A stretch of 64,000 nucleotides of DNA. Origin: Pediococcus acidilactici (GTDB lineage: Bacteria; Bacillota; Bacilli; Lactobacillales; Lactobacillaceae). The stretch covers positions 744,001-808,000 of the forward strand of contig CP103908.1 in NCBI GenBank assembly GCA_024970065.1. The letters run 5' to 3'. The notes under the pieces are model-generated. The model was given only the letters and a program-made list of their open reading frames with translations, had not been told where the DNA came from and did not search any database. This document shows, in pieces, positions 45,565 to 50,949 of the stretch (position 1 is its first letter; each line of letters begins with the position of its first letter). A program made the position numbers and the translations under genes.

Positions 45565-45629
45565 TGTGATTTGGTGGACGATTTGCATTAGAGTAGCGGT
45601 AACCATCTCCAAAATTTAATATTAATTGA

Positions 45630-45659
45630 ATCCCTTCCCATGGTGGGAGGGATTTTTTT
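45630..45659 (+). terminator. Intrinsic terminator of the small operon
   Basis: ATCCCT(T)CCCA pairs with TGGGAGGGAT and is followed by TTTTTTT. Confidence 0.85.
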
Positions 45660-45692: not shown

Positions 45693-45714
45693 AACTGTTG
45701 GGTAGCGAACAGTT
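45693..45714. promoter_or_regulatory. 22-base dyad with Crp-like spacing before the NhaC operon
   Basis: AACTGTTG-N6-GAACAGTT has the length and half-site spacing of Crp-family sites (TGTGA-N6-TCACA pattern). It ends two bases before a TTGACC -35-like hexamer (45717-45722). The operon's last gene encodes a Crp/Fnr regulator. It could instead be a hairpin, since a T run follows. Confidence 0.45.
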
Positions 45715-45856
45715 TTTTGACCGAAATTTTGGTAAATTAATTGTGAAATAAATATCAAACTTACGCACGGATTTTATCGGAAAAGAGGTTGGTGAAGTGA
45801 ATAGCTTAAAGGGTGGTGAGCAAGGATATGAGATTGCGTTTTATGGAGGTAAAAAA

Positions 45857-47269
45857 ATGGGGATGGTCCCCATTGTGGTTTACATCATTGTTAGCGCCGG
45901 GTTAGCAATCTTTTTCCAAGTATATTCAATGAAGGGATTGGCCGTCGCTTCGATAATTGGTCTTTTTGCGGACTTTTTCTTTGTAAAAGAGAAGGCTAAG
46001 TATTGGAAAGTAATTATTAAAGGGTTAGCGCAATTTGGCAACTCTAAATTGATTTTTACCTTCATCTTAATTGGGTTGTTCACTAAATTATTGACGGTGG
46101 GCAACATTGGGAGTGGATTTGTTTGGTTGAGTACCCAAATGGGAATTACCGGAAGTGGTTTCGTGGTTTTTACGTTTATCGCCTCCACAATTATCTCCAT
46201 GGGGACTGGGGCACCCATTGCGGCGGTATTTGCGGTGGTGCCAATCTTTTACCCACCAGGGATTATGTTAGGAGCGAAAGCCGCAGTTTTAGTAGGAGCA
46301 ATTTTGAGTGGCGTTTTCTTTGGAGATGCAATGTCGCCCAGCTCGCAGGTGATTAATACCACCATTGATACACAGCATGATAAGCAGACCCACAAGTCCG
46401 CTGACTTACAAGGCGTAATGAAGACTCGGAGCCCGTATTTAATCGTAGTTGCGTTGCTTAGTGCAATTTTATTTTACATGTCTGGCTCTACCGGCGCGGC
46501 CATTAATCCAGTTCAACTGGCAGTAATTAACCAAAATGCCGACGGCAAGGGACTATTTATGCTGATACCAATTGTAATTTTATTAGTGGTTAGCTTTATT
46601 AAGAAAGATTTATTTTTAGGTCTATCGTATGCTACGGTAATCGGATTGGTTTTAGGGGTGGTCCTAGGAAGCTTCCAGATTGGAGATGTTTTAAGGGTTA
46701 ATCGGCAGCACGAACTACTCGGAATCCTAGTTACGGGAACATTCAGCATGACGGATATTATTATTTCTTCCATATTATTGTTTGGCATGATTGCGGTGGC
46801 CGTGGAGTCGGGATGCTTGGATATGTTGTGTGAATGGATTTTAAAAAAGAAGGTTATTCAGTCCCCGATGGGCGCGGAGTTAGTTTTGGTGCTCACCATT
46901 GGGGTAATTAATATTTTGCTTTCGGGCTGTGTTCTGCCAGCAATTTTGTTATTTAGCAACGTTGCGGACCAAATCGGCCAGAGCGCAAATATTTCACCCA
47001 ACAAGCGCTCGTATCTACTAACTGGGGCAGCAACAACGGTGACGGCGATCATTCCCGTTAATAGTGCATTTGTAATGGGTGCGGTTACGTTAATTAATCA
47101 AATAAATGTAACCGGTTACGGCAAGGTGGGGGTTAATCCGTTTGAGATTTTTGCTTCCAGTTATTACTGCATCTTGCTTACCCTAGTTTGTTTCTTATGG
47201 GTTTTTAAACGGGAAAAGCAAAGTAATCCAGAAAAAATAGGAATCAAAGGAGTATCGAGAAATGCGTAA
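45857..47269 (+). CDS. NhaC-family Na+/H+ antiporter-like transporter
   Basis: Membrane transporter of 470 residues from this start. It has about ten or eleven hydrophobic segments and NhaC-like motifs such as MGTGAPIAAVFAVVP and FFGDAMSPSSQVINTT. GGAGGT lies seven bases before the ATG at 45857. A GTG at 45797 would add 20 polar residues and cannot be excluded. The family includes Na+/H+ and organic acid (malate-lactate) antiporters, so the cargo is open. It overlaps the next gene by eight bases and heads the redox operon. Confidence 0.82.
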   Translation: MGMVPIVVYIIVSAGLAIFFQVYSMKGLAVASIIGLFADFFFVKEKAKYWKVIIKGLAQFGNSKLIFTFILIGLFTKLLTVGNIGSGFVWLSTQMGITGSGFVVFTFIASTIISMGTGAPIAAVFAVVPIFYPPGIMLGAKAAVLVGAILSGVFFGDAMSPSSQVINTTIDTQHDKQTHKSADLQGVMKTRSPYLIVVALLSAILFYMSGSTGAAINPVQLAVINQNADGKGLFMLIPIVILLVVSFIKKDLFLGLSYATVIGLVLGVVLGSFQIGDVLRVNRQHELLGILVTGTFSMTDIIISSILLFGMIAVAVESGCLDMLCEWILKKKVIQSPMGAELVLVLTIGVINILLSGCVLPAILLFSNVADQIGQSANISPNKRSYLLTGAATTVTAIIPVNSAFVMGAVTLINQINVTGYGKVGVNPFEIFASSYYCILLTLVCFLWVFKREKQSNPEKIGIKGVSRNA

Positions 47270-48449
47270 CGAATATGATGTATTAATCGTCGGCGGGGGC
47301 CCGGGTGGTTTGACGGCGGCAATTTATGCCGGGCGCGCCGAATTAAAAACCCTTTTAATTGAAAAAAGTGGTTACGGTGGACGGATTACTGAAACGGCAG
47401 AGGTTAAAAATTACCCAGGGATTGAGTTAGATTCTGGAAGCCACCTAATGGAGACCTTTAAAAAACACGCCGAAGATGGGGAGACCGTGGAATTAAAGCG
47501 CACGACGGTAACCAAGGTGCAACCTAGTGAGGGAGGTTTCGTGGTATCAACGAAACGACGGGGCGATTTTACAGCTAAAACGGTAATTTTAGACTTAGGA
47601 ACCGTTCCGCGTGAATTAAATATTAGTGGTGAAAAAGAGTTTGTCGGCCAAGGAGTTTCGTACTGCGCTACCTGTGACGCGGAATTTTTTAAGGATCAAG
47701 AAATTTTCGTGGTTGGAGCAGGGGACCAAGCCATCGAGGAATCCGAATATTTAGCTAAATTTGCCAAAAAAATTAACATTGTCGTGCTCCATGATGAAGG
47801 TGTTTTAGATTGCAATGAGGTGGCCGCTAAGAATATTAAAAACAATCCGAAGGTTAACTTTATTTGGAATTCAACGCTAGCAGAAATTAAAGGGGGCGAA
47901 AAAGTTGAAGAAGTAGTTGTTAAAAATGTAAAAACTGGAGCATTAACTACTCACACGACCAAGGGAGTGTTCTTCTTTATTGGGATGACTCCTCAAACTA
48001 GTTTGGTAAAAGGAGTGGTTGAAAGGGATGAACACGGGTACATTCACGTAAATGAGAAGCAAGAAACTAATTTGCCAGGATTATACGCAATCGGGGACTG
48101 TACGGATAATTATCTGAAACAAGTAGTTACAGCTTGCGGAGATGGCGCTTGTGCGGTAGTCGCAGCAGAACGCTATCTGACTGAAAAAAAACAGCTAGAC
48201 CAAATTTTAAACGATTCCAATGCAAAAGTGGCGTTCATCTTTTTCAATCCGTATGAAACCCAGGACATTGACCAAGCAACCAAGTTTGAAAATGCCTTGG
48301 TAGAAAAATATAAAGTCTACCGTCAGGATGTTTCACACCAAACCATCTTGTTTAACCAGTTGAAACTTACCCAAACGGTCGCGGCAGCATTGTACGAAAA
48401 TGGTCAGTTGATAAAAGTTGTTAATAGTATTGATGAATTAGAAAAATAG
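47262..48449 (+). CDS. Thioredoxin-reductase-like flavoprotein with C-terminal extension
   Basis: Cytoplasmic NAD(P)H-dependent disulfide reductase type of 395 residues. The FAD motif GGGPGG is at 11-16, the redox pair Cys135-Cys138 in SYCATCDAEFF, and the second Rossmann motif VVGAGDQAIEESEYL is near 151. Ordinary bacterial TrxB ends near residue 310. Here about 80 extra residues follow, with a thioredoxin-like pattern but no CxxC. AAAGGAG precedes the ATG. The neighbouring gene carries a thioredoxin domain with CVHC, its likely redox partner. Confidence 0.85.
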   Translation: MRNEYDVLIVGGGPGGLTAAIYAGRAELKTLLIEKSGYGGRITETAEVKNYPGIELDSGSHLMETFKKHAEDGETVELKRTTVTKVQPSEGGFVVSTKRRGDFTAKTVILDLGTVPRELNISGEKEFVGQGVSYCATCDAEFFKDQEIFVVGAGDQAIEESEYLAKFAKKINIVVLHDEGVLDCNEVAAKNIKNNPKVNFIWNSTLAEIKGGEKVEEVVVKNVKTGALTTHTTKGVFFFIGMTPQTSLVKGVVERDEHGYIHVNEKQETNLPGLYAIGDCTDNYLKQVVTACGDGACAVVAAERYLTEKKQLDQILNDSNAKVAFIFFNPYETQDIDQATKFENALVEKYKVYRQDVSHQTILFNQLKLTQTVAAALYENGQLIKVVNSIDELEK

Positions 48450-48460
48450 GGGTGAATAAC

Positions 48461-50272
48461 ATGGGACAACCTTCAGTATTCCCGCACGGGACCACAATTT
48501 ATAAACCGGAGAAGTGTTTTAACGGCTATACAATCGTTCCGCTGATTAACGACGGGGTTTTACTATTTGATATGAACGGAAATGAGGTTCGCCGTTGGAA
48601 TATGCACGCAATGCCGCCTAAATTGTTTAAAGGTGGCTACGTAATGGGTTCTTCGGGGAACCGTCATCCTGATTATGGAATGCAAGACGGAGTTAACTTG
48701 ATTGAAATTGACTATGACGGCAACATCGTTTGGGAGTTTGACAAACTTGAAAAGATTGACGATCCGGGCCGGGATCACCGCTGGATGGCGAGATCTCACC
48801 ACGATTTCCAACGGGAGGGCAACCCGGTTGGCTACTACGTTCCGGGCCAAGAAGCAAAACCGCTTTCGGGCAATACGTTGATTTTAGGGCACCAAACGAT
48901 CCATAACCCTAAGATTTCTGACAAACGGTTGTTAGATGAAATTATGTATGAAGTGGATTGGCAAGGGAACATCGTTTGGCAATGGTCCATTAACGAACAT
49001 TTTGACGAACTAGGGTTTGATGAGGCTGCCAAGAACGTCTTGTTCCGCGACCCTAACATGCGTTCTTCCGATGGAGGCGTCGGAGATTACCTCCACGTTA
49101 ATTGCATGAGTTACTTGGGACCAAATAAATGGTACGACGCTGGAGACGAGCGTTTTAAACCGAACAACATTATTTTTGACAGTCGGGAAGCAAATATCCT
49201 AGCCATTTTAGATAAGGATACGGGAAAGATTGTTTGGAGAATTGGTCCGGACTTTAATGCTTCACCAGAGCTAAAGAAGTTAGGGTGGATTATTGGGCAA
49301 CATCACCTGCACATGATTCCTAGAGGACTACCTGGCGAAGGCAACCTCTTAGTCTTTGATAATGGGGGGTGGGCAGGTTATGGCGTTCCAAATCCGGCTT
49401 CTCCAATTGGAACAAAGAACGCCACCCGGGACTACAGTCGAATTATTGAATTTGACCCAACCACTTTGAAGGTGGTTTGGGAAGTTACCCCTAAAGATTT
49501 TGGACACGCTATCCCAGTGGACGCAAGTAAATTTTATAGCCCGTACGTTTCTTCGGCACAACGGTTGCCGAATGGTAACACGCTGATTGACGAAGGGTCA
49601 GATGGGCGCTTAATTGAAATTACAAACGAAAAAGAAATCGTGTGGGAATGGATTTCACCATATTATTCGCATACCGATCCAGGACAACCTAAAAATAACA
49701 TGATTTATCGGGCGTATCGTTATCCTTACGACTACGTGCCGCAAGAACCAGTACCTGAAGAAGTGGCGATTGAGCCAATCGATAACACGACTTACCGGGT
49801 TCCAGGCGCTGGTAAACTAGGTGCTAAGAAAGTTATCGATGTAGAAGGAACTTTGCCATATTACGCTGACGTTGCTTTATGTGTGGCTACGGATGACGAG
49901 GATGATACAATTAATAAGGAAAAAGTGTTTGACGTTGATAAAGACTTCTTTGCGCCTCTGACCACTGCTACCTTTGACGAAGCTGTCTTAGAAAACCAGG
50001 AGAAGCCAGTTCTAGTCCTATTCGGCGCAGAAAGATGTGTGCACTGTAAGGCTCTGCATCCAGTTTTAGAAGAAGCGTTAAAAGAAGACTTTGCTGATGA
50101 CTTTATAATTCATTACGTAGACGTGGATGCCGAAACTAAGTTGGCTGAACAGCATAAAATTGCGGGAATCCCGGTCGTAGCCATCTTTAAGGACGGAAAG
50201 GAATTACAACGCTTTAATGGTGAACGTGATTACGATGACGTTTGTGATTTTCTGGAAGATGCCCTGAAATAA
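48461..50272 (+). CDS. Arylsulfotransferase-thioredoxin fusion protein
   Basis: Protein of 603 residues. Residues 1 to about 450 resemble the arylsulfotransferase (ASST) beta-propeller, with HVN at His212, the QHHLH cluster at 281-284, His349 in GHAIP, and repeated SAQRLPNGNTLI-type blades. Residues about 495-603 form a thioredoxin domain with CVHC at 526-529. Known ASSTs are exported, but no signal peptide is seen here, so it is probably cytoplasmic. The start is the ATG at 48461 after GGGGTG. It is surrounded by a TrxR-like gene and a Crp/Fnr regulator. The reaction is unknown: sulfate transfer, or a propeller co-opted for thiol redox chemistry. Confidence 0.8.
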   Translation: MGQPSVFPHGTTIYKPEKCFNGYTIVPLINDGVLLFDMNGNEVRRWNMHAMPPKLFKGGYVMGSSGNRHPDYGMQDGVNLIEIDYDGNIVWEFDKLEKIDDPGRDHRWMARSHHDFQREGNPVGYYVPGQEAKPLSGNTLILGHQTIHNPKISDKRLLDEIMYEVDWQGNIVWQWSINEHFDELGFDEAAKNVLFRDPNMRSSDGGVGDYLHVNCMSYLGPNKWYDAGDERFKPNNIIFDSREANILAILDKDTGKIVWRIGPDFNASPELKKLGWIIGQHHLHMIPRGLPGEGNLLVFDNGGWAGYGVPNPASPIGTKNATRDYSRIIEFDPTTLKVVWEVTPKDFGHAIPVDASKFYSPYVSSAQRLPNGNTLIDEGSDGRLIEITNEKEIVWEWISPYYSHTDPGQPKNNMIYRAYRYPYDYVPQEPVPEEVAIEPIDNTTYRVPGAGKLGAKKVIDVEGTLPYYADVALCVATDDEDDTINKEKVFDVDKDFFAPLTTATFDEAVLENQEKPVLVLFGAERCVHCKALHPVLEEALKEDFADDFIIHYVDVDAETKLAEQHKIAGIPVVAIFKDGKELQRFNGERDYDDVCDFLEDALK

Positions 50273-50295
50273 CTGATGGACAGGAGGGATTCCTG

Positions 50296-50949
50296 ATGGA
50301 ACAGCGCGATTTTGTGAAAAGTATTTTGCAGCATCCCTTAATTCGAAATCATTGTCGAATTGAAGAATACAAAAGAAATATTATCGTAAAGACCCCAGGA
50401 ACCCTAATTACGGAGATTGGAATTGTGCTCAAGGGCTATCTTAAGGCGATTATCTATTCTAGATATGGTAAAGAAATGTGTGAAACGATTTTCGGACCCA
50501 ACAGCATCATTTTAGAATATTTACATTTCTCGGGAGATAAACGGTCCACGTACAATTTAGGTTCAATTAACCAATGCCAGATTTGTTGGATTCCGATTGA
50601 AAATTTTTCAAAAGTGATTTTCGAAAATCCCGAACTTTCTAAAATGTACATCCACCAGTTAGCCAAACGAGGGCTGGAAAATCAGCGTTTGATCACCTGT
50701 TTGGGTTATAAAACGGTACGCGAACGGGTTGCTTACTGGATTATTAGCGGTGGTATTTCAGCGATGGAAAACACCGAAGCAACTGAGCTTGAATTCCCAG
50801 TCTCACAAGAAGTATTTTCAGAAATCTTACACGTGACCCGTTCATCATTGAATCAAGAGCTCCAAAAAATGAGTGCAGACGGACTTTTTACGGTGAAACG
50901 AAACGTGTTGAAGAATATAAATTACGCTAAATTAGTTAACGAGATTTAA
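50296..50949 (+). CDS. Crp/Fnr-family regulator of the redox operon
   Basis: Regulator of 217 residues. An N-terminal cyclic-nucleotide-binding-like barrel (about 1-140) is followed by a winged HTH (about 145-217, FPVSQEVFSEILHVTRSSLNQEL). It lacks the classical four-Cys [4Fe-4S] pattern at the N-terminus but has several scattered Cys, so redox sensing is possible. AGGAGG precedes the ATG, 23 bases after the ASST fusion. Autogenous control of its operon through the dyad at 45693 is a reasonable guess. Confidence 0.88.
   Translation: MEQRDFVKSILQHPLIRNHCRIEEYKRNIIVKTPGTLITEIGIVLKGYLKAIIYSRYGKEMCETIFGPNSIILEYLHFSGDKRSTYNLGSINQCQICWIPIENFSKVIFENPELSKMYIHQLAKRGLENQRLITCLGYKTVRERVAYWIISGGISAMENTEATELEFPVSQEVFSEILHVTRSSLNQELQKMSADGLFTVKRNVLKNINYAKLVNEI

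Follow-up and report, generated by a model that had tools for sequence, protein, structure and literature searches.

A leaderless arylsulfate sulfotransferase joined to thioredoxin in Pediococcus acidilactici: a candidate cytoplasmic sulfate-ester reductase

What would an arylsulfate sulfotransferase (ASST) do in the cytoplasm with a thioredoxin tethered to it? The question is raised by a stretch of 64,000 nucleotides of Pediococcus acidilactici (assembly GCA_024970065.1, contig CP103908.1, positions 744,001 to 808,000 of the forward strand; hereafter the window), where an NhaC-like membrane transporter, a thioredoxin-reductase (TrxR)-like flavoprotein, an ASST-thioredoxin fusion and a Crp/Fnr-family regulator are encoded by four successive genes (Table 1). 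To our knowledge, the real partners of the sulfate-moving ASST family have never been found. We consider it probable, though well short of certain, that the operon codes for a sulfate-ester reductase that works in the cytoplasm and is coupled to thioredoxin. An original prediction, made from the letters of this DNA, had proposed that a cytoplasmic sulfur- or thiol-based redox pathway is served here by a dedicated reductase, a regulator and a transporter; it named no reaction, and the comparative evidence presented here supports the pathway. It had also suspected that relatives might carry an annotation, and the fusion gene has indeed been given the name "aryl-sulfate sulfotransferase [Pediococcus acidilactici]". 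No description of the system was found in the open-access literature, most subscription journals lying outside the search.

The fusion matches the ASST profiles PF05935 (84 bits) and PF14269 (61 bits) in its propeller and the thioredoxin profile PF00085 (73.5 bits) at residues 502-602, with CVHC at residues 529-532, so the predicted joining of the two domains is borne out by Pfam. Residue numbers count throughout from GTG 48452, the start given in the list of open reading frames (ORFs); the aligned homologs begin at ATG 48461. Both the family profile and the propeller fold place the protein among the ASSTs independent of 3'-phosphoadenosine 5'-phosphosulfate (PAPS), and EcAST (AssT; PDB 3elq), DhAST and Cpz4 (PDB 9kf4) are among the closest known systems. 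By alignment, H117, H215, N217, R245 and H284 correspond to H252, H356, N358, R374 and H436 of EcAST; five of its six active-site residues are thus retained, and the sixth, Thr501, is V366 (and isoleucine in 18 of 18 aligned PF17425-type sequences). All five were present in 119 of 126 distinct ASST-like ORFs, a set that includes fragments (the first ORF of locus L062, L137 and both halves of L212) and one sequence with unknown letters, one of them at position 284 (L210). A loss of the active-site geometry, which the original prediction had named as a possible objection, is therefore not what we find. The traits of a periplasmic AssT with DsbL/DsbI were absent from the fusion: its N-terminus does not resemble a signal peptide on inspection, as had been noted before, and there is no structural disulfide shortly before the counterpart of His436, the sequence being free of cysteine between residues 218 and 477. 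Relative to EcAST, the fusion lacks a leader and has in addition the cysteine in its tail, the thioredoxin domain and TrxR as a partner.

On sequence comparison, the cysteine that follows the ASST propeller is the new feature here. A cysteine occurs in the aligned tail region of 122 of the 126 ORFs, exactly at column 477 in 120 and mostly in the motif A-L-C-V; L134 has none at that column, yet its tail reads FCVV. The residue accompanies the active site in 117 of the 119 ORFs with all five residues, and the thioredoxin CxxC is present in only 68 of the 126, though the tail cysteine is found in 122. EcAST aligns as far as model residue 431 (its own residue 571), 46 residues short of Cys477. The four ORFs without the cysteine are those of Methylosinus (L097) and Calothrix (L099), a sister subfamily at 36-37% identity, one piece of a disrupted gene (L212) and an intact gene of G121. 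The last belongs to a locus (L208, 5733-8299) where two adjacent ASST paralogs lie amid ABC importer genes. In paralog A (411 aa) none of the five active-site residues is left, and a tail with DFCVV is retained; paralog B (439 aa; 59% identity with the window protein along 441 positions) retains the five residues and lacks the tail. Such a division of active site and tail cysteine over two genes is expected if a tail can work in trans on an active site, and the pair may perhaps be an obligate heteromer. Two of 97 rows without C477 (L015 and L016) had been taken for a broken gene; this was rejected, since they are one intact 446-aa frame of the G121 split pair, counted twice.

The same cysteine was found in a second group of ASSTs. 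The window genome carries another ASST (L001 970-2616, at about 33 kb of the contig) with a hydrophobic N-terminus and a PF17425 domain, which has no cysteine at all and no tail. As an "exported" control we took 20 PF17425-type loci (L164-L183), 18 of them usable after a length and score filter had left out L173 (one 1664-aa frame) and L183 (short pieces). On inspection, 17 of these 18 had no signal-peptide-like start and showed the same tail cysteine, in the motif A[LMA]CV in 17 of 17; the exception was the window genome's own enzyme. The earlier statement that bacterial ASSTs are exported is thus too broad for the sampled phylum. The hydropathy maximum by itself failed to tell the leaderless control proteins from true leaders. 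The A[LMA]CV motif was absent from 20 of 20 enterobacterial PF17425 ORFs: 14 are close AssT relatives with leaders (by inspection) and no cysteine in their last 147 residues, and the other six (L196-L198, L201-L203) are distant, with 43-81 bits to the queries and, in some, cysteines near the end outside the motif.

A mobile, near-invariant cysteine together with a tethered thioredoxin and a TrxR of its own suggests that this cysteine is the acceptor of the cytoplasmic ASST. We scored same-strand genes lying no more than 6 kb away in 80 named loci, 57 with and 23 without fused thioredoxin; the set consists of the query's top-scoring matches and is redundant, Pectobacterium, Klebsiella and like genera being over-represented. 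The linkage was confirmed in part of the fused loci, with TrxR in 24, NhaC in 20 and the Crp-like gene in 18 of the 57. Candidate thiol partners were also present in 12 of the 23 loci without fused thioredoxin, namely a lipoyl protein (six), dihydrolipoamide dehydrogenase (DLDH; five), a glutaredoxin (Grx)-like family and a separate thioredoxin (one). The lipoyl protein that was scanned scored over the GcvH cut-off, and in three loci LipA/LipB lay close by. When 20 cytoplasmic loci were set against the 20 control loci, GcvH was counted in four versus none, the Grx-like family in seven versus none and DLDH in three versus none, with LipA/LipB once in the control (L168); these counts are not independent of the 80-locus counts, since the named loci supplied the seeds and the two samples partly coincide (L146 scores as L062). 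The dithiol systems around the ASST appear to be exchangeable, from fused thioredoxin plus TrxR to separate thioredoxin plus TrxR (L090) or to GcvH plus DLDH plus LipA/LipB. L090 brings a cytoplasmic ASST, a PF17425-type ASST, thioredoxin and TrxR together in one locus. The Grx-like family (L062 9131-9973, L091 9111-9959 and relatives) starts, by our reading, with a glutaredoxin-like GCTRCK and has an NrdG2-like radical-SAM half (60.4 bits, cut-off 131); it adjoins ASSTs without thioredoxin, and in several loci GcvH and DLDH are also present.

The TrxR-like protein scored 339.6 bits against TIGR01292 (cut-off 343.45) and has CATC at residues 135-138. Compared with low-Mr thioredoxin reductases and the AhpF core, it adds a C-terminal domain (about residues 322-395) without CxxC, whose order of elements we read as thioredoxin-like. 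The usual NADPH motif of thioredoxin reductase is HRRxxxR; at its expected position, residues 173-185 read VVLHDEGVLDCN and the motif is not apparent. D183-C184-N185 were unchanged in 20 of 20 sequences, and the cofactor may be NADH.

We infer the catalytic steps as follows. The membrane transporter would import an organic, probably aryl, sulfate. As in known ASSTs, the propeller's His284 would attack the sulfur, freeing a phenol or alcohol and forming a sulfo-histidine; the mobile tail would then carry Cys477 into the pocket, where the sulfuryl group would be taken up as Cys-S-SO3-. Attack of the tethered CVHC thioredoxin on this S-sulfonate would let sulfite depart, the mixed disulfide would be resolved, and the dedicated TrxR-like enzyme would return the thioredoxin to its reduced state, for a net R-OSO3- + 2 e- -> R-OH + SO3(2-). 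The sulfite could go to AsrABC or to another sulfite reductase in genomes that have one, to sulfur assimilation or to export. In PAPS reductase, a mobile C-terminal cysteine becomes Cys-S-SO3-, which thioredoxin resolves. This logic of PAPS reductase (CysH) with thioredoxin (PDB 2o8v), in which sulfite leaves, would be common to both systems; the donor of the fusion would instead be an organic sulfate ester and a sulfo-histidine step would come first. No PF01507 match was obtained in the fusion at E up to 1. The system thus appears to be a conserved, dedicated, leaderless ASST-thioredoxin that is an ASST by fold and active site and resembles PAPS reductase in its proposed working only.

The transporter stands at the head of the locus, and its identity as NhaC is weak, with 20.4 bits against PF03553 (cut-off 23) and 27.5 against TIGR00931 (cut-off 370); we predict that it moves the sulfate ester or its product. 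Among the 80 loci, SsuABC-like permease genes lay by the ASST in 34 and DASS genes in nine; the 57 fused loci had 30 SsuABC-like permeases, 20 NhaC, two DASS, two AsrABC and two YeiH. In AtsRBC/SsuABC-type uptake systems, which these permease genes recall, release is by a sulfatase or an FMN monooxygenase, whereas here an ASST, mostly with thioredoxin, would have the releasing role. The only enterobacterial permease scanned (L082) showed two BPD_transp_1 stretches. L047 holds two ASST-thioredoxin genes plus TrxR and two DASS/SLC13 genes, and a plasmid version in Cetobacterium (L098) has consecutive genes for an FAD-dependent oxidoreductase, an ASST, an SLC13 permease and NhaC. Directly downstream of TrxR-ASST-thioredoxin in Phytobacter (L025) are AsrA, AsrB and AsrC of the anaerobic sulfite reductase (543, 416 and 500 bits; cut-offs 323, 289 and 324), and Kluyvera (L029) has their close homologs, by similarity, in the same order; sulfite as the product fits AsrABC in these two operons. 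A YeiH-type exporter gene (197 bits, under the cut-off of 232.6) stands between fusion and regulator in Enterococcus (L022), and Vagococcus (L021) has a similar one, by similarity, inside the operon. Two weak AsrC-like matches were rejected, being a ferredoxin-nitroreductase protein (L050) and a siroheme protein that resembles NirB and lies some 6.7 kb upstream (L091). We also searched 17 other whole genomes (16 with operon-type loci, plus L040 of the ABC type) for NIR_SIR, a family that also includes nitrite reductases, and 11 had such a protein. In the window genome neither NIR_SIR nor PF01507, the PAPS reductase family, gave a match, and a PF03601 (YeiH-family) gene lies away from the operon; this Pediococcus would therefore export the sulfite and would profit from an electron sink or from the phenol set free.

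The regulator passed PF13545 (30.3 bits, cut-off 27) and narrowly missed PF00027 (25.5, cut-off 27.5). Upstream of the first gene lies the palindrome ACTGTTGGGTAGCGAACAGT, which resembles TGTTGG-N4-CCAACA; it matches exactly once in the 2.0-Mb window genome, and two more sites have two mismatches. Of the 16 operons compared, 15 have the palindrome centre 29-30 bp ahead of a TANNNT hexamer, which would place it near -41.5, where class II sites of Crp/Fnr activators lie. In the odd one, L028, the palindrome is present and a simple -10 is absent; L017, L031 and L041, whose first gene reaches the contig end, were outside the comparison. The motif was read by eye and then scored, against mononucleotide shuffles, on nearly the same 14 operons (the window and, out of the 18 fused loci with a Crp-like gene, 13), nine of which scored at least 11 of 12 and were equalled by at most 1 of 1000 shuffles. 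L019, L020 and L022 were no better than shuffles (382-493 of 1000), L023 was marginal (112) and L024 gave 5 of 1000; in these weak-scoring operons support comes from the fixed spacing. Two Furfurilactobacillus loci outside the motif discovery (L036, L037; same genus) scored 12 of 12 at an offset of 29. The single exact site and the spacing suggest that the Crp/Fnr protein is a dedicated activator, which would switch the operon on from about -41.5.

The close packing of the four genes noted in the original prediction is confirmed: all are on the same strand, with an 8-bp overlap between the first two and gaps of 11 and 23 bp thereafter. An assembly artefact does not explain the fusion, since full-length fusion proteins of about 600 aa with 53-99% identity were found in many organisms among the listed matches (the best 120 of 6226 homologs; 7999 candidates scored), in Lactobacillaceae, Enterococcaceae, Clostridia, Actinomycetaceae and Enterobacterales; one P. 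acidilactici cluster among these had 104 member sequences. The four-gene block also occurs in lactobacilli, Enterococcus, Vagococcus, gut Clostridia and Gordonibacter, and without the Crp-like gene in Actinomycetaceae, Kluyvera and Phytobacter. Homologs were detected in 24 of 398 genomes evenly drawn from the phylum (E <= 1e-60), in 13 of 201 of the family (1e-20) and in 14 of 295 of the family of the Phytobacter genome (1e-100). The cytoplasmic type was borne by 11 of the 14 phylum-sample genomes with PF17425 ASSTs, against the 24 of 398 overall. Two of five distant plasmid matches (36-37% identity) were taken in. The NhaC-like gene has a possible other start at GTG 45797, and the terminator scan of the region gave four sites against 6.3 expected in shuffles, the hairpin ahead of the operon being weak by itself.

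Table 1. Coordinates of the genes, protein parts and upstream elements of the locus, as positions in the window
Feature	Position	Strand	Basis or remark
Terminator-like hairpin 5' of the operon	45628..45655	+	terminator scan
Palindromic operator ACTGTTGGGTAGCGAACAGT, predicted Crp/Fnr site	45694..45713	+	centre at about -41.5 if the -10 is 45733-45738
-10-like hexamer TAAATT	45733..45738	+	not in consensus promoter hits
NhaC-like membrane transporter, 470 aa	45857..47269	+	ORF call; profile scores under curated cut-offs
Thioredoxin-reductase-like flavoprotein, 395 aa	47262..48449	+	ORF call
ASST-thioredoxin fusion, 603 aa counted from ATG	48461..50272	+	ORF call, profiles, homolog alignment, structure model
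ASST beta-propeller, residues 12-434, with H117, H215, N217, R245, H284	48485..49753	+	
H284 codon, counterpart of sulfurylated His436 of EcAST	49301..49303	+	residue mapping onto EcAST
Flexible tail, residues 473-488, predicted local distance difference test (pLDDT) below 50, near-invariant Cys477 (codon 49880-49882, motif ALCVA)	49868..49915	+	
Thioredoxin domain, residues 496-606, CVHC at codons 50036-50047	49937..50269	+	
Regulator of the Crp/Fnr family, 217 aa, predicted to activate the operon it belongs to	50296..50949	+	profiles, conservation, operator

Could the same genes serve another purpose? The retained active site would equally suit an ordinary cytoplasmic sulfotransferase working between small molecules, with thioredoxin and the tail cysteine as nothing but a redox on/off switch, and DhAST and others are described as transferases in vitro (PMC13426309). 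We nevertheless hold this to be unlikely, as it leaves unexplained the AsrABC genes in the operon, the G121 split, with a paralog that lost its active site and keeps the tail cysteine and an active one that is tailless, and the replacement of thioredoxin by a lipoyl/DLDH system. Somewhat less likely again is that the chemistry is as proposed and the donor is not an O-sulfate ester, being instead a sulfamate, a thiosulfonate or Bunte salt (e.g. S-sulfocysteine) or another sulfonate-like compound that enters via SsuABC, DASS or NhaC: the importers do look like sulfonate systems (the SsuA-like protein of L093 has 149.8 bits, cut-off 163.5), but the pocket residues are those of the aryl-sulfate enzymes. 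That the propeller has no catalytic role and serves for binding or as a scaffold, in a thiol-stress operon for disulfide or electrophile reduction, seems very improbable; thioredoxin and TrxR do occur together in the nearest relatives, and CxHC thioredoxins resemble PDI/DsbA-type motifs, but the five sulfotransferase residues are so widely present in the ORFs and relatives have sulfonate-type importers and AsrABC.

Several observations weigh against the sulfate-ester reductase itself. Thirty of the 57 fused loci have the SsuABC-like permease yet no local TrxR, and 11 of the 23 loci without fused thioredoxin show no redox partner on the same strand in the 6-kb range; in five of the 12 with a candidate, it is the Grx-like family alone, named from its CTRC motif with no Grx profile listed. 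The intended negative control was not clean: TrxR was found in six of its 20 loci and thioredoxin in five (L166 and L171 also contain a cytoplasmic ASST). Linkage to TrxR therefore extends beyond this subfamily. As PF17425-type ASSTs, probably DhAST among them, sulfate phenols in vitro, a thiol need not be the sole acceptor, and the tailless G121 enzyme and the sister protein L097 retain the five active-site residues without the cysteine. AsrABC adjacency is limited to two of the 80 loci, from two related genera and perhaps one event; besides the window genome, NIR_SIR was not found in six of the 17 other genomes, one of them another P. acidilactici. Taken together, the comparative evidence points to reductive sulfite release as the reaction of the operon. 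The wider proposal, that leaderless bacterial ASSTs as a class, the PF17425-type included, are natural sulfate-ester reductases with their own tail cysteine as acceptor and sulfite as product, is more tentative, and we would give it slightly less than an even chance.

If leaderless ASSTs as a class do work in this way, they would represent a third route for taking sulfate off organic esters, besides sulfatase hydrolysis and oxidative cleavage. A protein thiol as acceptor and sulfite as product would be a specific, testable answer to the question of the ASST partners, and would explain why leaderless ASSTs are found beside thioredoxin systems. The class-wide proposal would, if true, also cover the PF17425-type enzymes, which are the kind used for "sulfation" in biotechnology. 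If the sulfate-ester reductase of the operon is real, anaerobes would gain both an electron acceptor and a sulfur source and, because close relatives occur in Blautia, Clostridium, Emergencia and Gordonibacter, a reductive branch of organosulfur metabolism would connect the formation of sulfite and sulfide with gut sulfates of host, dietary or drug origin.

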